A stretch of DNA of 64,000 nucleotides from Microbacterium sorbitolivorans. GTDB taxonomy: Bacteria; Actinomycetota; Actinomycetes; Actinomycetales; Microbacteriaceae. The notes under the pieces were generated by a model, which saw only the letters and a list, made by a program, of their open reading frames with translations, was not told the origin of the DNA and ran no database searches. The stretch is from NCBI RefSeq assembly GCF_003327285.1, contig NZ_KZ848477.1, positions 1-64,000 of the forward strand. The letters are read 5' to 3'. Of the stretch, positions 5,002 to 41,754 are shown one piece after another. Within the stretch, counting starts at the first letter, position 1. Each line of letters opens with the position of its first letter. The translations under genes were made by a program, and so were the position numbers.

Positions 5002-5301
5002 CTACTGCTCGGCGAGCGCTCCGGCGCGCTCGGGGTGGTCGGCAAACCAGTCGGCGACGTACCAGCACACGGGCAACGCCTTCTTACCCTCGGCCTCGAT
5101 CGCGTCGACCGCGCGCTCGGTGACGACCGCCGCGTATCCGTGCCCGCGCTTCGCCGGATTCGTGAACGCGCGGGTGAGGGCGACCACGTCACCGTTCACG
5201 CGATACTCGAGCACGCTCACCAACTCGCCGTCCTTGCGCAGCTCGTAGCGCGAGTGGTCGGGGGCATCAGAAAAGCTGAAATTTTCGGTCACATTACCCA
5301 T
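5002..5301 (-). CDS. small GNAT-like N-acetyltransferase (YjdJ/CG family)
   Basis: A 99-residue single-domain acetyltransferase-like protein of the short GNAT group. The order is typical: a beta-strand start (SRYELRKDGELVSVLEYRV), then LTRAFTNPAKRGHGYAAVVT with the acetyl-CoA-binding RGxGYA turn, then a C-terminal VCWYVADWFADHPE segment in which a Cys and the HPE motif are conserved in this family. Members are thought to bind acetyl-CoA, but substrates are mostly unknown. The gene lies 18 bp from the start of the preceding coiled-coil gene on the same strand and could be its operon partner. No ribosome site precedes the ATG, so it may be leaderless. Confidence 0.85.
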   Translation of the reverse strand: MGNVTENFSFSDAPDHSRYELRKDGELVSVLEYRVNGDVVALTRAFTNPAKRGHGYAAVVTERAVDAIEAEGKKALPVCWYVADWFADHPERAGALAEQ

Positions 5302-5541
5302 TGTGCGTCACATACTTTGACACATTGCGAGACGCTAGGCAACAATTGCTCACATGACGACATATTCGCTGATTCTGTCCGCCCGGGAGGCGAACGGAGT
5401 GACCGGTGCGATGATGCACGGTCCCATCAGCGTGTGTCGAATGTGCCGCTGACGCTTCCGGACCCCACCCAAATCCCCTTTTGCGCGGTACTCTCGCTAC
5501 GTGAGTAGCTGGCAGAGCGCGCCCGTCGAAACGGCCACCTT

Positions 5542-6171
5542 GTGAACGACCAGTCCTCCCCTGCCATCCCCACGACCACCGAGCCCCGCGGCTTCGCCCT
5601 CTACGTCGGTCTCGACGAGGCGACCGCGGCCGCCGATGGCGTCAGCCTCAACATCATCGTCGACGCCCTGCGCCGCACGATCTCCGAGCTCTCGCCCCGC
5701 GCCGAAACCTACGCGACCGTGGCGCTCGCGCCGAAGTCGACCGGCGGGCGCGACATCGACGTCGTGCGCCTCGCCCTCAAGGAGCCCGGCGCCGTCGCCC
5801 GCGCGAAGCAGGCCTCGCCGAGCCGCGACACGAACATCGGCGTGAACGTCGACATCTCGCGCAAGCGCGTCGAAATCGACGGCGAGAACGCCGCGCTCAC
5901 CTATAAGGAGTTCGAGCTGCTGCAGTACCTCGTGCTCCGCGAGGGCCGCACCATCGAGCGCACCGAACTCGTCGACGCCCTCTGGCAGGCCGGCGACGAC
6001 GGAGCCCCCGGCGAGCGCACCATCGACGTGCACGTGCGCCGCCTGCGCTCGAAGCTCAGCCGCTACGAAGACATCGTGCGCACGGTGCGCGGCATCGGCT
6101 ACCGCTTCGACCGCCACGCCGACGTCACGATCCGCTACGGCGCCGGAGCCCCCTCGCCCGACCGCTTCTAG
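5542..6171 (+). CDS. winged-helix (OmpR/PhoB-type) DNA-binding regulator without a receiver domain
   Basis: A 209-residue transcriptional regulator. The C-terminal half (about residues 105-195) is an OmpR/PhoB winged helix: LTYKEFELLQYLV, RTELVDALWQAGDD, then a recognition region ERTIDVHVRRLRSKL and the closing wing IVRTVRGIGYRF. The N-terminal 90 residues are not a canonical receiver: no phospho-acceptor Asp motif is visible, and a FALYVGLDEA strand begins a small unrecognised alpha/beta module. It may therefore be phosphorylation-independent. The GTG start (VNDQSSP) has no good ribosome site. The 240 bp upstream hold the divergent promoter region. Target genes cannot be inferred. Confidence 0.82.
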   Translation: MNDQSSPAIPTTTEPRGFALYVGLDEATAAADGVSLNIIVDALRRTISELSPRAETYATVALAPKSTGGRDIDVVRLALKEPGAVARAKQASPSRDTNIGVNVDISRKRVEIDGENAALTYKEFELLQYLVLREGRTIERTELVDALWQAGDDGAPGERTIDVHVRRLRSKLSRYEDIVRTVRGIGYRFDRHADVTIRYGAGAPSPDRF

Positions 6172-10881: not shown

Positions 10882-11675
10882 GCGATCGCGGCGCGGGCGA
10901 GCACGTCGGCGGGCTGGATCCGCGACAGCTCGTCGAGGAAGTGCACCGCGAAGCTGCCCGGGCCCTCGGCGCGGGCGGCGGCATCCTCGGAGGCGATGCA
11001 ATAGGTCGCGGTCGCGGCGACGGCGGCCTCGAACGGATCCGCGACCGCCGCAAACGCCGCCATCACGGCGCCGAGCGCGCAGCCGCCGCCGGTCACGCGC
11101 GTGAGCAGCGCGGATCCGTTATCGATGCGGGCGGTGCGGGATCCGTCAGTGATCAGGTCGATCGGGCCGGAGACGGCGACGACGGATCCGTGATCGCGCG
11201 CGATCGCCTCGGCCGCGCCGGCCGCGGCCTCGACGTCGTCGGTCGAGTCGACGCCGCGCCCGCCGCTACCGGAGCGCGCGAGGGCGAGGATCTCGGACGC
11301 GTTGCCGCGGACGATCGTCGGTCGGCGCGCGACAAGGGTGTGCGCGAGCGGGGTGCGCACGGGCGCGGATCCGATGGCGACCGGATCCAGAACCCACGGC
11401 GTCCCGGCGTCTGCCGCCGCCTCGGTCGCCTCGAGCATGGCGTGGCGCTGCTCGGATCCAGGGGTCCCGAGGTTGACGAGCAGGCCGGAGGCGTGGCGCG
11501 CGAACGGACCCGCCTCGACCGGGATGTCGACCATGGCGCCCGCGGCGCCGAGCGCGAGCAAGACGTTGGCCGTGAACCCGGTCACGACGCGATTGGTGAT
11601 GACCTGCACGAGAGGGGTGCCCTCGCGCAGGGTTGTCAGGGCAGTGGCCGAAGCCGTGGAAAGCGCAGAATTCAT
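10878..11675 (-). CDS. thiM: hydroxyethylthiazole kinase
   Basis: Phosphorylates 4-methyl-5-(2-hydroxyethyl)thiazole in thiamine salvage. The protein has about 265 residues, the usual length. Recognisable blocks are [48 protein letters not shown] and [17 protein letters not shown], which is the nucleotide/anion-binding Gly-rich motif with the catalytic Cys position. Two in-frame ATGs exist. The upstream one abuts GGAGGG with no spacing, so the one four codons downstream (MNSALSTAS), with GGAGGG 12 nt away, is preferred. It is first in an operon with an ABC importer and directly follows a TPP riboswitch, so it should be repressed by thiamine diphosphate. Confidence 0.93.
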
Positions 11676-11689
11676 CGTGCGCGACATCC

Positions 11690-11762
11690 CTCCGCTAGTA
11701 CGAACTAGTTCAGGTTCGACGGGTGTGATCTCAGCCGCGCAGCGGCACCCCGTGTCACGTGG
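11690..11762 (-). promoter_or_regulatory. TPP (thiamine diphosphate) riboswitch
   Basis: On the minus strand the conserved THI-element blocks occur in order: GGGGTGCCG, GCGGCTGAGATCACACCCG, GAACCTGAACTAGTT, then the closing GCGGAGGGATG, which contains the thiM ribosome binding site. The overlap with the ribosome site suggests control at translation initiation. It governs thiM and the downstream importer. Confidence 0.93.
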
Positions 11763-35335: not shown

Positions 35336-35421
35336 CGCTTCGGCCCAGGCGCGCGGTCGAATGCCGTTCATTGTGCCGCTTCCCGGTGGTGACCCACCTC
35401 GGGCGCCAGTCGCGACGGGTC
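35336..35421 (-). promoter_or_regulatory. ZTP/ZMP riboswitch (pfl motif) of glyA-folD
   Basis: On the minus strand: GACCCGTCGCGACTGGCG, a GGTGGGTCACC hairpin, CCGGGAAGCGG, a spacer, then GCGCCTGGGCC. This is the order and core sequence of the pfl motif (GACUGGCG, GGGGAGCG-like loop, CGCCUGGGCA pseudoknot strand). It lies about 40 nt before the glyA start. Binding ZMP/ZTP should switch on these one-carbon genes. Confidence 0.88.
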
Positions 35422-35422
35422 G

Positions 35423-35450
35423 ATCATACCCTGAGAGCCTGCGGAAAAAC
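35423..35450 (-). promoter_or_regulatory. probable glyA promoter
   Basis: TATGAT (complement of 35423-35428) is a good -10 box directly before the ZTP riboswitch. A weak TTTTTC-type -35 lies upstream, within the U-run of the neighbouring terminator. Confidence 0.6.
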
Positions 35451-35513: not shown

Positions 35514-37664
35514 TTAGGCGCGGGTCTTGCGACGCACGAGGAGGAGACCGGCACCGGCTGCCATAAGGAGAGCAGCGCCACCCGCGAGGGGCAGAACGGT
35601 CTCGCTCTGGGTTGCGCCGGTCGGGGCAAGGCCGTCATCGTCCTTGTCACCGGGCTGCTCCGACGGGGCCGGAGCCGGGGTGGGCTCCTCCGAGGGAGCC
35701 GGGGTCGGCTCCTCCGAGGGCTCCGGAGCCGGGGTCGGGGTGGGCTCCTCGGTCGGGGCCGGGGTGGGCTCCTCGCCGCCGCCGTTACCCTCAGCCGTAA
35801 CCGAGAAGGTCGACTCGGCTGCGGCGCTGGTCACGCCTGCGATGCTCTGCGTCACCGAGACGGTGTAGTTACCGGCGACGAGCTGGTTCGGGAACTCAAC
35901 CATCCAGTTGCCACCCTCGACGGTGGTCTCACCGGCGACGCCGCTGCCGTCAGCGGTCTCGAGCGAGACGCTGACCTTGGCGCCGTCGATGGGCGAGGTA
36001 CCGATAACGGCGGGGAGCTTGCCCTCGACGTAGCTGTTGCCGTTACCCGGCGTGACGATCGTGGGGGCCCCCGGGACGACCGAGAAGGTCAGCCAGCGGG
36101 TCTCCGACTCGAGGCCGTTGACCGTCTGCGTGACGCCGACGGTGTACTTGCCGAAGCCGAGCTCGGTCGGGATCGAGAACTTGCCGTCCTCGCCAACCGT
36201 GGCGGTACCCTCGGCGTCGCCCGACAGGGTCACGGTCGCGCCGGCAACGCCGGTACCGGTGATCGAGGGGGCAGCCTCGGTCGTCGACGACTCGTTCGCG
36301 GGGCTGGTGACCTCCGGAGCGGCCGGGGCCTCGGGCTTGGGTGCCTCGGTGGTCTTGACCGTGGCGTTCACGGTGTCCGACACGTTGAAGCCCTGCTTCG
36401 CGGTCAGCGTGATGTCGAACGAGCCGACCTTGCTGGGAGCCGCGAACGAGAAGTTGCCGCTCTCGTCGGTCGTAGCCGTCGCCTCGATGTCGCCGGCGAT
36501 CGTCACGGTCGAGTTCGCCGGAGCGGTACCCGTGAACTTCTCACCCTGAACGGCGGTCGCCTTCGCGACGGCCGGCTCATCGATGTCGAGCGCGATCTGG
36601 TAGTCGTAGCCGTTCTCGCTCGCGACGCGGAGCGCGTCGGGGAGGTCGGTCACCCAGATGAAGTTTCCGACGCCACCACCGCTGGCAACGCCAACGGCCT
36701 TGTCGCCAACGAGCACACCGCCGCCGGAGTCACCGGGCATCGCGAAGTCTTCGGAGTTGTTGTTCTCAGCGCTGAAGCCGTAGACGATGTGGCCGCTGAT
36801 GTTCGCGTAACCGATCTCGCGGACCGTGCCCTCGCCCGCACCGGTGGTGCGGCCCGAGGTGGTGATCGTGTCGCCGACCTCCGCCGAACCGTAGCTGCGG
36901 ACCGGGTGGGTCGACGCGGCGTGGTCGTCGCTCGGGGCGCCCGTCCAGTCGGTCACCGCGGGAAGCAGCGTGTACTTGTCGTTGATGTTGCCAAGGAACG
37001 AAATGTCGGTGCCGTTGGCGGTGTTACCGTCGGTCGAGTTACCCGGGCCGCCGAACTGGCCGAACGTGTACTCGCCGAGGATCTCACCGTCGAAAATCTC
37101 GGCGGTGTTCTCGTCGCCGGTGACGGCGGGCTCGGTCGACGGGCGCGACAGCACACCGAAGGTCGAGCCACCGAACTCGGTCATGCAGTGACCGGCCGAG
37201 ACGAGCGCCGGGGCACCCGACGCGTCCCAGGCGCTGAAGCCGAGCGAGCAGGACGAGTTAAGCGTGTCGCCCGAGCCCGAGAGGTAGCCAGCGCCACCCA
37301 CGACCTCGTCGGACGAGATCGCGTCGAACTGCTCGCCCTCGACGACCTCGACGTTCGAGAACTTCGCGGCGATTGCCTCGGCGCTGATGCTCTCGCCGTC
37401 GACGGGCGCGGCAAGAGCGGTGAAACCGCCCTCGCCCGACTCGTCGGCGACCTTGATCTGGATACCGTTGCCATCGGTCACGACGGCAACGACGCCGGGA
37501 ACCTGGAATGCCTCGGCCGCGACCTGGTCGAGCTCGGCCTGAGGCGCAGCTTCGGCGGCGAGCGCGGGTGCTGCGACCACTCCGCTCGCTACGAGGGCGG
37601 CAGCGGCGCCAAAGGCGCTGAGCTTCGCCGCTCGGTTGAAAGTGAAACGCAAGGAACTCCCCAT
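35514..37664 (-). CDS. secreted, sortase-anchored S1-like serine protease with Ig-like repeats
   Basis: Cell-surface protease of about 716 residues. A signal peptide (MGSSLRFTFNRAAK, then a hydrophobic stretch ending AAPALAAEA) leads to a pro-region and a chymotrypsin/streptogrisin-type domain: His in ALVSAGHCMTEFG, Asp in ANGTDISFLG, Ser in FAMPGDSGGGVLVG. Three or so Ig-like/Big repeats follow (for example PSITGTGVAGATVTLSGDAE), then a Pro/Glu/Thr stalk, sortase motif LAPTG, a hydrophobic helix and RRKTRA. The start is uncertain: GAAGGA abuts this ATG, and another ATG eight codons upstream (MAVVPPEG) is possible. It is followed by a strong terminator. Substrate unknown; probably extracellular protein degradation. 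Confidence 0.9.
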   Translation of the reverse strand: MGSSLRFTFNRAAKLSAFGAAAALVASGVVAAPALAAEAAPQAELDQVAAEAFQVPGVVAVVTDGNGIQIKVADESGEGGFTALAAPVDGESISAEAIAAKFSNVEVVEGEQFDAISSDEVVGGAGYLSGSGDTLNSSCSLGFSAWDASGAPALVSAGHCMTEFGGSTFGVLSRPSTEPAVTGDENTAEIFDGEILGEYTFGQFGGPGNSTDGNTANGTDISFLGNINDKYTLLPAVTDWTGAPSDDHAASTHPVRSYGSAEVGDTITTSGRTTGAGEGTVREIGYANISGHIVYGFSAENNNSEDFAMPGDSGGGVLVGDKAVGVASGGGVGNFIWVTDLPDALRVASENGYDYQIALDIDEPAVAKATAVQGEKFTGTAPANSTVTIAGDIEATATTDESGNFSFAAPSKVGSFDITLTAKQGFNVSDTVNATVKTTEAPKPEAPAAPEVTSPANESSTTEAAPSITGTGVAGATVTLSGDAEGTATVGEDGKFSIPTELGFGKYTVGVTQTVNGLESETRWLTFSVVPGAPTIVTPGNGNSYVEGKLPAVIGTSPIDGAKVSVSLETADGSGVAGETTVEGGNWMVEFPNQLVAGNYTVSVTQSIAGVTSAAAESTFSVTAEGNGGGEEPTPAPTEEPTPTPAPEPSEEPTPAPSEEPTPAPAPSEQPGDKDDDGLAPTGATQSETVLPLAGGAALLMAAGAGLLLVRRKTRA

Positions 37665-37926
37665 TCCTTCGGGCGGGACTACCGCCATCTCGCAAGAAAT
37701 TTGCGCTCGTCCCACACTCAGGAAGACCTCAGCTGGAACATAAGCTTTGCCAGCTTACATAACGACCAGGTCACGCACCAGCCCGGAATGATGGTTCACC
37801 CGCCGATCACCCGACAAATATGCTGGCATGCCCATATTGTCCATGGGAACTTGCCGCATGCCCACCGTTCGTGACCCCCACGGGCTACCCTGGGGTCAAC
37901 CAGGATCCGGACGATCGGAGGCCATG

Positions 37927-38316
37927 ATGAACATGCGACGCGCGACCCTCGCCCTCGCCTTCATCGCGCCCGCGGCACTCGCGGCCGGGTGCGCAACTAA
38001 TACTGATGCAGGAGCGACCTCGGTGAACCAGGAAGACTACATCGGTGCGGCCTTCACGAGCACGGCGAAGGGCGAACCCTTCCTCGAGTTTGCCGAGGAC
38101 GGCACCTACAGCGGATCCGACGGCTGCAACAAGCTGAACGGCACTTACGAGGTCGGCGATGACGAGCTGGTGCTGAAGCCCGGCTTCTCCACTCTGATGG
38201 CGTGCGACGGAGTCGACACCTGGGTCCGCGGCGCCAAGGCCGTAAAGGTCGAGACCGACACCCTCGTCGTCTTCGACAAGAGCGGATCCGAGATTGGCAC
38301 CCTCGCGAGGGCGTAA
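37927..38316 (+). CDS. META domain-containing lipoprotein
   Basis: A 129-residue lipoprotein with signal peptide and lipobox ALAAGCATNT. The mature part resembles a META/HslJ-like domain: YIGAAFTSTAKGEPFLEFAE, SDGCNKLNGTYEVGDDELVL, and FSTLMACDGVDTWV, where Gly-Cys-Asn and the later Cys are characteristic. HslJ relatives are envelope proteins associated with stress or inhibitor resistance. Three nearby ATGs exist. The one used has GGAGG five bases upstream; the others are too close or further. A strong terminator follows. The gene is divergent from the protease gene and both act at the cell surface. Confidence 0.86.
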   Translation: MNMRRATLALAFIAPAALAAGCATNTDAGATSVNQEDYIGAAFTSTAKGEPFLEFAEDGTYSGSDGCNKLNGTYEVGDDELVLKPGFSTLMACDGVDTWVRGAKAVKVETDTLVVFDKSGSEIGTLARA

Positions 38317-38330
38317 CCTCCAGAAACATA

Positions 38331-38367
38331 AGTGGCCCGGGACGTACCTGATACGTCCCGGGCTACT
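38331..38367 (+). terminator. intrinsic terminator after the META lipoprotein gene
   Basis: AGTGGCCCGGGACGTA pairs with TACGTCCCGGGCTACT (one wobble) around CCTGA, followed by TCTCTT. Confidence 0.85.
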
Positions 38368-38610
38368 TCTCTTGGTGCGGCCCGCAGGGCCCGCACCCGC
38401 CTCGGTCTTACTCCCCCCGGATGCCGAGCGTTCCTCTCTCACCACACAAGACCCCGTGGCCACCGTTTTATGACGCGGTTTCGCGGAAATTTCGCGATTC
38501 CAACCAAAATGCCGGATGGGGCGGCAAATTTTCTGTGAAGTTTGGCCTGGGCTTGGCATCTTGGCGGTCGGAGGAGGACAATCGAATCCGGTCTTCACTA
38601 CTGGGGGAAC

Positions 38611-41600
38611 ATGTCGGATCAGCTCGAGCCCGGCGCCGGAAACGCCGATGGCGCGTCTGACGTCGACCTTCTGCTGCGCTCGCGGTCTGGTGATACGGAG
38701 GCGTTCGGGGAGCTCTGGAGCCGTCACTACCGCTCCGGCATCGCGGCCGCTCGCGGCATCAGCTCGACGATCGATCCCGACGACCTCGTGCAAGAGGCCT
38801 ACACAAAGATCTTCCAGACGGTGAAGCGCGGCGGCGGCCCGACGGGCTCGTTCCGCGCATACCTCTTTACTGCGATCCGCAACACGGCCGCGAGCTGGGG
38901 GCGCGCGCCCCGCGAGGTCGCGATCGAATCGGCCGAGTTGATCGAGGATCCGGAAACGTCCGAGGAGGCCACCGAGGCCGCCCTCGATCGCGGCATCACA
39001 CACTCCGCCTTCCGTAGGCTGCCCACGCGCTGGCAGGAGGTGCTCTGGTACACCGAGATCGAGCAGATGAAGCCCCGCGAGGTCGCTCCCCTGCTCGACA
39101 TGAAGCCCGTCGCGGTCTCGCAGCTCGCGGCGCGAGCGCGCGAGGGGCTGCGCGAGGCGTGGATCCAGGCGCACCTCGCGAACCTCGCCGACGGATCCGA
39201 GCACCAGTGGGCGATCGAGCACCTCGGTGCGCACACCCGCGGCAACCTCACGGCGCGCGATCGCAAGCGCCTCGGCGTTCATCTCGCCGAATGCGCGCGC
39301 TGCACAATCGTCGCCGAGGAGGCACAGCACGTCGGCAGTCGCCTCGCGATGGTGCTGCTGCCGCTCGCGATCGGGATCCCCGCCGCAGGCGCGTACCTCG
39401 CGACGCTGCAGCGCGGCGAGCACGCGGCGATCGCCCTCATGGCGATGCCCGCCGAGGTCGTCGAGGGCGGCATCGCCGTCGGCGGCGCCGCGGTCGCGGG
39501 TAGCGCGGCCGTCGCGACGAAGGGATCCGGATCCGGCGGATCCGCGGGAACCGCCGCGACGTGGACGCTCGGCAGCCTCATCACCGCCGGCATCGCGACT
39601 GCCGCCGTCGCGATCGCCTTCGCGACGGGCCTGCCCGCGCACGACGGTGGCGCGACGTCGAGCGCGGCCGCGTTCGGATCCGATGCCCCGGGCGGCGCGT
39701 CGATCGAGGCCTCCGACGAGCTCGACGAGACCCAGGACGAGGTCGCGACGCCCGTCACGCCCCCGACGCCCGTGCCGTCGGCGACGCCCTCGGAGCAGCC
39801 CGACGCGCACCAGCTCGGCATCTCGGGTGCTCGCGTTGTGAACGCTTCCAGTGGATCCGTTGCCGTCGATATCACCGGCGCCCCCGGCGCGGTCACGAGC
39901 GTCCACGCGCCCGGATCCGGTGAGCTCGTCGGCGCCGGCGGATCCGCCGATCGCCCCGCGACCTCGGCGATCGCGGCCATCGACGGTGCGCGCCTCGACG
40001 ACACGACGATCGGCGCCGACGGATCCGGCCACCTCGCCTTCACGCTCTCGCCGGCCCAGGTGCGCGCCGACGTGACCCTCACGGTTCTCTACCCGAACTC
40101 GGCGGAGCCGCCGGCGCGCGCGACGCTTTCGGGGCTCGGCATCCGCGACGAGCTTCTCGCGGCCCTCGAACCGGATGAGACCCCATCGGCCGAGCCGACG
40201 ATTCCGGCCTCGCCGGAGCCCACGCAGTCCGCTTCGCCGGAGCCTGTCGAGCCTGGGCTTCCGACCCCCGCGCCCGAGACCCCCGCGCCGCTGCCTGAGC
40301 CTGAGCCTAAGCCTGAGCCTGAGCCGACGGTTCAGCCGGCACCGACTCCGACGGCCGAGCCGACTCCCGAGCCGCTGCCGCTGCCCTCGCCGGAGCCCGT
40401 GCCCACTCCCGAGCCCGTGCCGACTCCGGAACCGGCGCCTACTCCTACCCCGGAACCGACGCCGAGCGACGAGCCTGAGGCGACGCCTACGCCTGAGGCA
40501 ACGCCGACGGCTGAGCCGTCCGCCGAGCCCGAGCCCGAGGAAACGGCAGCCCCGACGCCGAGCACCGAGCCGAAGCCGGAGCCGGAGCCGGAGCCAGAGG
40601 AGACCGCAGCTCCCACGCCGACGCCGAGTCCGACGGCCACGCCGACCGTCAAGCCGACGGTTGTGCCGTCGGAGGATCCGACTGCCAAGCCGACGACTGA
40701 GCCGACCGAGGATCCGACCGTCGAGCCGACGACTGAGCCGACCGAGGATCCGACCGTCGAGCCGACGACTGAGCCCACGGAGGAGCCGCCCGTCGAGCCG
40801 ACGGACAACCCCTCGGTTGATCCGACGGACGACCCCACGCTTGGGCCGACCGACGAACCCACGCTTGGGCCGACCGACGACCCCACGCCGACTCCGACTC
40901 CGACGGACGGACCGACGCCGGAACCAACCGTCGAGCCCTCGCTTGCACCGTCACCGGAACCGACCGTCGAGCCCTCACCGGAACCGACGCCGGAGCCGAC
41001 CGTCGAGCCCTCGCTTGCACCGTCACCGGAACCGACCGTCGAGCCTTCACCTGAACCGACGCCCGAACCTACTGTCGAGCCTTCGCCGGAGCCAACTCCC
41101 GAGCCGACTGAGGATGTTCCGAGTCTCGCTGCTCCGGAGATCACTTCTGTTGAGGTGTCGGAGGATGTCCCGGAGATCACGGTCGTTTGGACTGCGGTGG
41201 GTGGTGCGGAGCAGTACGCGGTCTACATCAATGACACGGATTCGTTCGACGGTGCGCAACCGATCGGGAGTTCGTCCAGCGGCATCGAGCGCATCGTTGT
41301 CGCGGCCCCGGAGACTCCGGGCACCTATTACTACTTCGTCGAAGCGACCGCCGATGGCTTCGAGTCGTCTCCGAGCGCTGGGTTCGATACATACGTGCGA
41401 GATGTGTACCCGCCGTCGGCACCGACGAACGTCCACTTCTCAGAAACGAACAGCCGACTGCTGGAGTGGTCCCCGTCCTACGACAAGGTTGACGGCTACG
41501 ACGTCCGCTACTTCGTCAGACGTGACACCACCACCACGCCAGAGATTACCGGCACCTCATACGAGGCGAACGCCACTCTCCTACCCGGCGAGTACATCTA

Positions 41601-41754
41601 CTACGTCTGGGCTGAAGATGCTGCTGGCAACAAGAGTGAACGGGCCGAAGTAATCCGCACCGTCACGTGGTTCACGTCGTCGAGCGATTCCGCGGATGTC
41701 TCCGTGACGGCCGAAGGCGCGGCCTCGGCATCCGCGACAGACGAGACTAGCTGA
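38611..41754 (+). CDS. ECF-type sigma factor fused to zinc finger, membrane segments, PT-repeat stalk and FN3-like domain
   Basis: A 1047-residue fusion. Residues about 19-95 are sigma region 2 (LLLRSRSGDTEAFGELW, IDPDDLVQEAYTKIFQTV) and 133-180 region 4 (AFRRLPTRWQEVLWYTEIEQ, MKPVAVSQLAARAREGLR). Near 224-231 lies an anti-sigma-like zinc motif, HLAECARC. Hydrophobic segments follow at about 244-265 and 317-340, then a linker, a small Gly/Ala-rich module, and a Pro/Glu/Thr repeat stalk of about 310 residues (524-833). The C terminus has one or two fibronectin-III/Big-like domains (ITVVWTAVGGAEQYAVYIND; RLLEWSPSYDKVDGYDVRYF). Predicted topology: sigma inside, stalk and FN3 outside, so an outside signal could release or expose the sigma part. 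GGGGG precedes the ATG. Confidence 0.88.
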   Translation: MSDQLEPGAGNADGASDVDLLLRSRSGDTEAFGELWSRHYRSGIAAARGISSTIDPDDLVQEAYTKIFQTVKRGGGPTGSFRAYLFTAIRNTAASWGRAPREVAIESAELIEDPETSEEATEAALDRGITHSAFRRLPTRWQEVLWYTEIEQMKPREVAPLLDMKPVAVSQLAARAREGLREAWIQAHLANLADGSEHQWAIEHLGAHTRGNLTARDRKRLGVHLAECARCTIVAEEAQHVGSRLAMVLLPLAIGIPAAGAYLATLQRGEHAAIALMAMPAEVVEGGIAVGGAAVAGSAAVATKGSGSGGSAGTAATWTLGSLITAGIATAAVAIAFATGLPAHDGGATSSAAAFGSDAPGGASIEASDELDETQDEVATPVTPPTPVPSATPSEQPDAHQLGISGARVVNASSGSVAVDITGAPGAVTSVHAPGSGELVGAGGSADRPATSAIAAIDGARLDDTTIGADGSGHLAFTLSPAQVRADVTLTVLYPNSAEPPARATLSGLGIRDELLAALEPDETPSAEPTIPASPEPTQSASPEPVEPGLPTPAPETPAPLPEPEPKPEPEPTVQPAPTPTAEPTPEPLPLPSPEPVPTPEPVPTPEPAPTPTPEPTPSDEPEATPTPEATPTAEPSAEPEPEETAAPTPSTEPKPEPEPEPEETAAPTPTPSPTATPTVKPTVVPSEDPTAKPTTEPTEDPTVEPTTEPTEDPTVEPTTEPTEEPPVEPTDNPSVDPTDDPTLGPTDEPTLGPTDDPTPTPTPTDGPTPEPTVEPSLAPSPEPTVEPSPEPTPEPTVEPSLAPSPEPTVEPSPEPTPEPTVEPSPEPTPEPTEDVPSLAAPEITSVEVSEDVPEITVVWTAVGGAEQYAVYINDTDSFDGAQPIGSSSSGIERIVVAAPETPGTYYYFVEATADGFESSPSAGFDTYVRDVYPPSAPTNVHFSETNSRLLEWSPSYDKVDGYDVRYFVRRDTTTTPEITGTSYEANATLLPGEYIYYVWAEDAAGNKSERAEVIRTVTWFTSSSDSADVSVTAEGAASASATDETS
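40182..41110 (+). repeat. Pro-Glu/Pro-Thr codon repeat tract in the sigma fusion gene
   Basis: Imperfect repeats of GAGCCGAC, CCGACGCC and CCGACCGTCGAG encode EPTVEPSPEPTPEP-like stalk sequence for about 310 residues. Two adjacent 48-bp copies of the TEPTEDPTVEPT type near 40697-40780 show recent expansion. Confidence 0.88.

Follow-up and report, generated by a model that had tools for sequence, protein, structure and literature searches.

Among the extracytoplasmic function (ECF) sigma factors, the closest described systems are the ECF52 proteins, which are reported to join a zinc finger, a membrane region, a proline-rich extension and an outer domain (PMC5826349, PMC8999054). The member SCO4117 of Streptomyces coelicolor is described as an ECF sigma factor with a fused zinc finger and these same parts behind it, in a group confined to Actinobacteria; its outer domain is given as NPCBM (listed as smart00776), and a truncated SCO4117 is reported to retain part of the effect (PMC5826349). 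The available accounts treat it as the best understood member and describe its promoter as unsettled. By their description, the ECF53 and ECF48 groups also carry a C-terminal zinc finger, fused together with one or two transmembrane helices, and are expected to be activated by proteolysis, and IutY of Pseudomonas putida (ECF243) is a sigma factor fused to a membrane anti-sigma domain and released by regulated proteolysis, with the difference that it serves iron-starvation cell-surface signalling in a Gram-negative bacterium (PMC8999054). Here we analyzed a 64-kb stretch of the genome of Microbacterium sorbitolivorans (contig NZ_KZ848477.1, positions 1 to 64,000; hereafter the window), in which a gene on the plus strand (38611..41754) encodes a real, intact, membrane-tied sigma factor of this known kind with a variant outer part. 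The analysis also corrected the topology first drawn for this protein and read a promoter-like site that is new relative to the known ECF52/53-like sigma factors and makes its function testable.

The protein resembles SCO4117 in having a zinc finger, a membrane region and a proline-rich extension behind the sigma factor, as in ECF52. In contrast to SCO4117, it has FN3 domains and a conserved beta domain, with a 310-residue stalk, and no carbohydrate-binding module: a Pfam search for such a module gave no match at E<=1, and FN3 stands in its place. Because the carbohydrate-binding end domain is missing, the protein was not filed as ECF52. The promoter-like motif also differs, being CSGYN-17-SRHA in the account of SCO4117 (PMC5826349) and GTAAT-N16-CGTC here. 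The initial annotation had stated that ECF factors with fused anti-sigma-like parts are known, which agrees with the published descriptions of ECF52 (PMC5826349, PMC8999054), and had called the long stalk with FN3 domains striking; in kind this arrangement is preceded by SCO4117 as described, and the FN3 domains are a variant of it. Relatives were also found at eight loci of one family with large, Streptomyces-like genomes (5.8-11 Mb), whose proteins are 33-39% identical over the first 250 residues; of two outer domains scanned there, one was NPCBM, as in SCO4117, and the other DUF642. A literature search for Microbacterium with such sigma factors, or for ECF-driven small RNAs in Actinobacteria, returned nothing matching in the search listings.

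The gene is a single intact open frame of 1047 amino acids with an ATG start after a GGGGGA stretch; a TTG at 38542 in the same frame is mechanically possible as an alternative upstream start. The encoded chain runs from an ECF sigma factor through a ZAS-type zinc motif, two hydrophobic segments, a beta domain and a Pro/Glu/Thr stalk to two FN3-type domains. The initial annotation had proposed a single-chain fusion of the sigma factor, zinc motif, two hydrophobic segments, stalk and FN3 domains, had named a frameshift as a way in which it could fail, and had reported no separate anti-sigma gene adjacent. The frame is open from 38611 to 41754 and, with the domain matches, bears the fusion out; likewise, no anti-sigma gene was seen next to it in the open frames, by Pfam on four neighbours or by eye on the remaining ones. 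Sigma regions 2 and 4 (residues 30-183; 38698..39159, plus strand) matched TIGR02937 above its cut-off (E 2.1e-20), which places the protein in the ECF superfamily, and Pfam Sigma70_r2 also exceeded its cut-off (E 3.1e-6); region 4 was under the Pfam cut-off, with 20.7 bits vs the 25.7 needed. For an AlphaFold model of residues 1-360, Foldseek ranked E. coli sigmaE first (1or7_A, E 1.2e-4); the TM-scores over the whole model were low (TMq about 0.2), and region 2 alone fitted 4lup_A well (TMt 0.85, rmsd 1.8, E 0.048). Most of the sigma and zinc parts of this model were confident, and the per-residue confidence (pLDDT) fell below 50 from about residue 291.

Class I (ZAS) zinc motifs follow the pattern H/C-x25-H-x3-C-x2-C. 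In the window protein the corresponding residues are H198, H224, C228 and C231 (39202..39303, plus strand), and the ZAS zinc motif was identified by a zf-HC2 match over the Pfam cut-off at residues 200-231 (E 2.1e-5). H224, C228 and C231 are invariant in alignments of 19 and of 63 sequences, and the position of H198 is Cys in many relatives.

The outer part begins with a juxtamembrane beta domain (residues about 403-506; 39817..40128, plus strand) that was absent from the initial annotation. It is conserved in an alignment with five close relatives and appears as strands in the AlphaFold model (pLDDT mostly 70-88, with one low loop); no named Pfam family matched it. The stalk (residues about 531-840; 40201..41130, plus strand) is built of tandem repeats at the DNA level, and residues 531-858 contain 34% Pro, 4 Lys and no Arg. 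The first FN3-type domain (residues about 844-930; 41140..41400, plus strand) was recognized by AlphaFold and Foldseek only, the top PDB matches being FN3 domains and part of an Arthrobacter endo-N-acetylglucosaminidase, and Pfam fn3 did not match it. For the second FN3 domain (residues 936-1012; 41416..41646, plus strand), fn3 was not matched in the Pfam scan of the whole protein and matched exactly at the cut-off when the last 189 amino acids were scanned alone (E 2.3e-5, 25 bits); the AlphaFold pLDDT of this domain was under 50.

Relatives keep the sigma factor, zinc motif, hydrophobic segments and Pro-rich outer part within one frame, and close relatives vary in stalk length and outer domains. 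Named outer domains include fn3 (locus L066), Big_13 (L060), NPCBM (L173) and DUF642 (L175); in L036 and L062 Pfam found no named domain in the outer part. The source organism is close to M. nanhaiense, with 90% identity across the first 271 residues. In the genus, 91 of 99 genomes gave a match at E<=0.001 with these residues as the query, and in the family 80 of 120 did, the weaker matches resembling other ECF factors; a profile matched 105 of 296 genomes in a class sample (E<=1e-25) and 10 of 198 in a phylum sample (E<=1e-35). Receptor-sigma fusions of this kind are thus common among the sampled Actinobacteria. The M. sorbitolivorans genome has five region-2 sigma matches, this gene among them. 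A separate observation is that one genome of the same family (G101) gave 21 matches to the sigma/zinc-finger query, many in long frames, so that such receptors have expanded strongly there.

Divergent from the sigma gene lies an ECF-type promoter-like site (38445..38482, minus strand), recognized as a conserved upstream block and as a single match in this genome. On the minus strand an A-rich stretch is followed by TCGCGTAATGAA, 13 bases and CGTCTC, with the core GTAAT-N16-CGTC, and from this layout we infer an ECF promoter. The upstream regions of 80 named relatives and the window were compared with the block at fixed spacing. At least 13 of the 18 core positions were present in 77 of the 81 regions (76 relatives and the window), 67 of which had at least 15; among shuffled regions 3 of 81 reached 13 (maximum 14), and gene interiors reached 12 at most. 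The reverse strand of the same regions also reached 13 in 42 of 81, because many regions hold a second, inverted copy. A forward copy, oriented toward the sigma gene and frequently some 72 bases ahead of its start, scored at least 10 bits in 36 of 81. We also tried reading the block itself as a promoter oriented toward the sigma gene and rejected this, since the spacing, the A-rich upstream stretch and the gene starts at other sites favour the opposite strand.

A motif model was aligned from 58 of 77 sites. Across the 64-kb window the divergent site scored 32.4 bits and the runner-up 8.8 bits. In 59 genomes searched at E<=1e-5, 31 of the 34 that carry a close ortholog (E<1e-90 when queried with the first 271 residues) had the motif, and 0 of the 25 that lack one did (Fisher test), a result that partly restates the origin of the motif, as many of these sites built the model. 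In 40 held-out genomes (E<=1e-4), 25 of the 27 that hold a close ortholog contained it, as did 1 of the remaining 13; this last genome (G091) does carry an ortholog, split in two frames. It is possible, though doubtful, that the motif is read by a different sigma factor or bound by a repressor: one copy in genome G097 lies near another sigma-like gene (L288, by eye), and at E<=0.01 the motif also weakly matched 6 of 25 ortholog-free genomes, which tells against its reading by this protein. The held-out co-occurrence, the ECF-like spacing, the A-rich stretch and the frequent forward copy before the sigma start argue instead for this sigma factor.

Away from the sigma gene, eight matches were found at E<=1e-6 in the 59-genome set, all in ortholog-bearing genomes. 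At seven of these sites a gene starts within 300 bp on the promoter strand, and five of the seven genes are of surface type; on the opposite strand the corresponding count is 2 of 8 (G034, G038). The surface-type genes encode Big_8/DUF5979 proteins (G002, G040), a SpaA protein with weak pilin-tip similarity (G034) and collagen-like membrane proteins (G049, G052), which amount to three kinds and not to five independent ones. The remaining sites precede a menC-like enzyme (G010, G011) or, in G038, lack a gene start on the promoter strand. The weaker sites include some at genes for a DUF5979/SpaA_4 protein (G011), an alpha/beta hydrolase (G019) and an isochorismatase-type protein (G008). The held-out set gave 12 sites away from the sigma gene, again all in genomes with an ortholog, and the genes there encode a collagen-like protein (G095), a Big_8/DUF5979 protein (G088), an alpha/beta hydrolase (G074), a GGDEF protein (G061) and, in G097, an isochorismatase-type protein and an aldo/keto reductase. 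Four kinds of gene (collagen-like, Big_8, alpha/beta hydrolase and isochorismatase-type) recur in both sets. The link of the motif to surface-protein genes appears as a trend and not as a rule, and the conserved site with its recurring neighbours provides a directly testable target list in Microbacterium.

Two hydrophobic segments follow the zinc motif, the first at residues 244-266 (39340..39408, plus strand), with invariant R244, P251 and G255, and the second at residues 316-338 (39556..39624, plus strand); between them lies a low-charge Gly/Ala/Ser-rich spacer (residues 267-315; 39409..39555, plus strand). The initial annotation had drawn the sigma factor inside and the stalk outside, with both segments crossing the membrane. 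With the sigma factor inside, two full spans would leave the stalk inside as well, so that the drawn topology contradicts itself; the placement of sigma inside and stalk outside is still the best reading, from paired cysteines and charge asymmetry in relatives, and this conflict frames the question of how such proteins sit in the membrane. For the counts, three of the 80 named loci were dropped: L099 (ends at a contig edge), L086 (378 aa) and L106 (29 aa as extracted), the frames of the last two being short as extracted. Of 48 loci sampled at the class and phylum level, 41 yielded proteins, and three duplicates were removed for the charge and hydropathy comparison; the AlphaFold alignment comprised 62 of 77 usable loci plus the window sequence.

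After the second segment, cysteines numbered zero in 44, two in 25, one in 1 and six in 1 of 71 full-length proteins. In the two-cysteine proteins the pairs are spaced by 10-11, 35-41 or 89-98 residues, and these distinct spacings suggest several separate disulfides, although related proteins make the counts non-independent. At the class level the cysteine number was even in 29 of 29 non-truncated proteins (L154 and L192 being one gene), and a truncated protein (L169) had one. Lys plus Arg made up 2.9% of the residues after the second segment vs 11.7% of the first 230 residues in relatives, and net charge dropped across the second segment in 31 of 38 class-level proteins, stayed equal in 5 and rose in 2. 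These cysteine and charge patterns in relatives support an extracytoplasmic C-terminal part. We placed a single crossing at 316-338 on the basis of this evidence together with the features of the first segment, namely P251 and G255, invariant in the alignments, a helix break at residue 255 in the AlphaFold model, and a weaker hydropathy at the class level (at least 1.6 in 18 of 38 proteins vs 36 of 38 for the second segment). Thus, only the second segment probably crosses the membrane, and the first may dip into it.

An arrangement with three spans, in which a weak middle segment (about residues 270-300) is forced across between two strong N-in/C-out helices, would likewise bring the stalk outside. 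Both strong segments favour the same orientation, and the middle one, with a mild hydrophobicity in the window (Kyte-Doolittle 1.6), is seen again in many relatives. However, the apparent insertion energy of the stretch between the segments is at least 2.08 kcal/mol in 78 of 78 proteins (median 3.29), against medians of -0.72 and -0.42 kcal/mol for the first and second strong segments, and some relatives have Asp or Pro in the middle segment. We therefore regard three spans as rather unlikely, and less likely than a first segment that dips into the membrane.

The sequences support the domains, the zinc motif, an outer C-terminus in relatives and a conserved promoter-like site, and on these we built a model that we consider moderately probable as a whole: a membrane-tethered ECF sigma factor with its own ZAS domain, a crossing second segment and an outer stalk, whose sigma part would be released by proteolysis and act at GTAAT-N16-CGTC promoters. 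At rest, the zinc domain would dock on the sigma factor and hold regions 2 and 4 at the membrane; the second hydrophobic segment would span it, and the Pro/Glu/Thr stalk would pass the wall and display the beta and FN3 domains outside. A signal at the surface or wall might then lead to cleavage outside and subsequently within the membrane, and the freed sigma part would guide RNA polymerase to GTAAT-N16-CGTC promoters. The outputs would be the site divergent from its own gene, perhaps with further targets in this strain and, in some other Microbacterium species, adhesin-like surface-protein genes.

Several observations weigh against this model. The AlphaFold model has a pTM of 0.48 and shows no interpretable arrangement of the sigma and zinc domains, and the window protein itself lacks the outer cysteines. 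The forward copy of the motif is absent in the window, and the genome yielded the motif once (one of the searches used strict filters), pointing at a META gene in antisense orientation. Away from the sigma gene, the start codons at the sites were the first Met/Val of the frame or were chosen by eye; in the held-out genomes only 6 of the 12 sites have a gene start within 300 bp, and adhesin-like genes stand at only 2 of 12.

Activation could also proceed by conformational change or ligand binding with the chain uncut: a conformational change is described as the trigger for ECF41, and interaction with a protein as that for ECF42 (PMC8999054). Here the sigma factor is tied to a hydrophobic anchor, and the same review, as far as it describes the fused zinc-finger/transmembrane groups, expects proteolytic activation for them; activation of an uncut chain is in our view unlikely. 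The genome has one M50 protease gene, from which proteolytic release is only possible. Finally, a hairpin of two true spans with the stalk inside the cell as a cytoplasmic interaction arm is what two predicted spans and an internal sigma factor would suggest at face value, and is very improbable given the even cysteine counts, the low Lys/Arg content and Pro/Glu/Thr stalk of the outer part, the FN3, Big_13 and NPCBM outer domains in the family, and the positive charge preceding the second segment.

The divergent site is predicted to drive a short structured RNA (38304..38443, minus strand), with a hairpin bearing a GGGGGG loop at 38401-38428. On the minus strand after the promoter, a run of five G (G5) occurred within 150 bases in 75 of 76 sequences (51 on average in shuffles, maximum 63), and at least two G5 runs occurred within 260 bases in 65 of 76 (33 in shuffles, maximum 41). 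The RNA alignment comprised 66 of 74 distinct sequences. When applied to the full alignment of upstream regions, RNAalifold found zero pairs because of the many gaps, and per-sequence folding was therefore used. Hairpin 2 folded more favourably than its shuffles (mean z -3.0; z below -2 in 52 of 61) and preferred the minus strand, with the lower energy in 54 of 61 and 120 vs 55 GU pairs; all-C loops on the other strand are penalised in folding, which qualifies this strand preference. Hairpin 1 was weaker (mean z -1.4, n 50), and its strand preference was not clear (31 vs 17 of 50; GU pairs 48 vs 56). By eye, the window clearly retains just the first G-loop hairpin. No Rfam family reached its cut-off in the region behind the divergent promoter. 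A 6C RNA was considered and rejected, with no 6C match in the window at 38300-38620 (E<=10) or in L126 at 5300-6000 (E<=5). We tentatively suggest that a wall-spanning surface sensor, once cut, activates adhesin genes together with a divergent small RNA with two G-rich hairpin loops, so that receptor, sigma factor and RNA output would share one locus; if true, this would parallel, in a Gram-positive bacterium, sigmaE with its envelope small RNAs. By eye, two motif copies that lie elsewhere than at the sigma gene (L288, L294) are likewise followed by a G-loop hairpin.

In the fetched flanks of the 80 named loci, the sigma gene is accompanied by glyA in 69, folD in 67, nagA in 62 and nagB in 52. 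In the window glyA and folD are near the gene, and nagA and nagB are on other contigs. This neighbourhood gives a possible hint of amino-sugar metabolism; sensing of N-acetylglucosamine as the function was not adopted, given the position of nagA and nagB in this genome, and is kept as a remark. Upstream of the sigma gene lies the META-domain gene, antisense to it, and beyond it a gene for a secreted protein with serine-protease similarity, Big_13 repeats and an LPXTG-type anchor (35517-37739, minus strand). The protease similarity ranges from E 2.1e-5 (to a solved serine protease) to 7.9e-4, with SAGHC and GDSGG motifs seen by eye; no Pfam protease family matched at E<=0.001, and the anchor was barely over its cut-off (E 0.0099). 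Among the 5 closest named loci, 4 have a relative of this gene within 6 kb of the sigma gene, at about 3 kb in L066. The protein could be a candidate target of the sigma factor or its site-1 protease. Two riboswitches were also found in the window: a ZMP/ZTP riboswitch (35336-35423, minus strand) before glyA/folD, present as well in 7 of 8 related loci searched, and a TPP riboswitch (11670-11762, minus strand; Rfam 68.9 bits).

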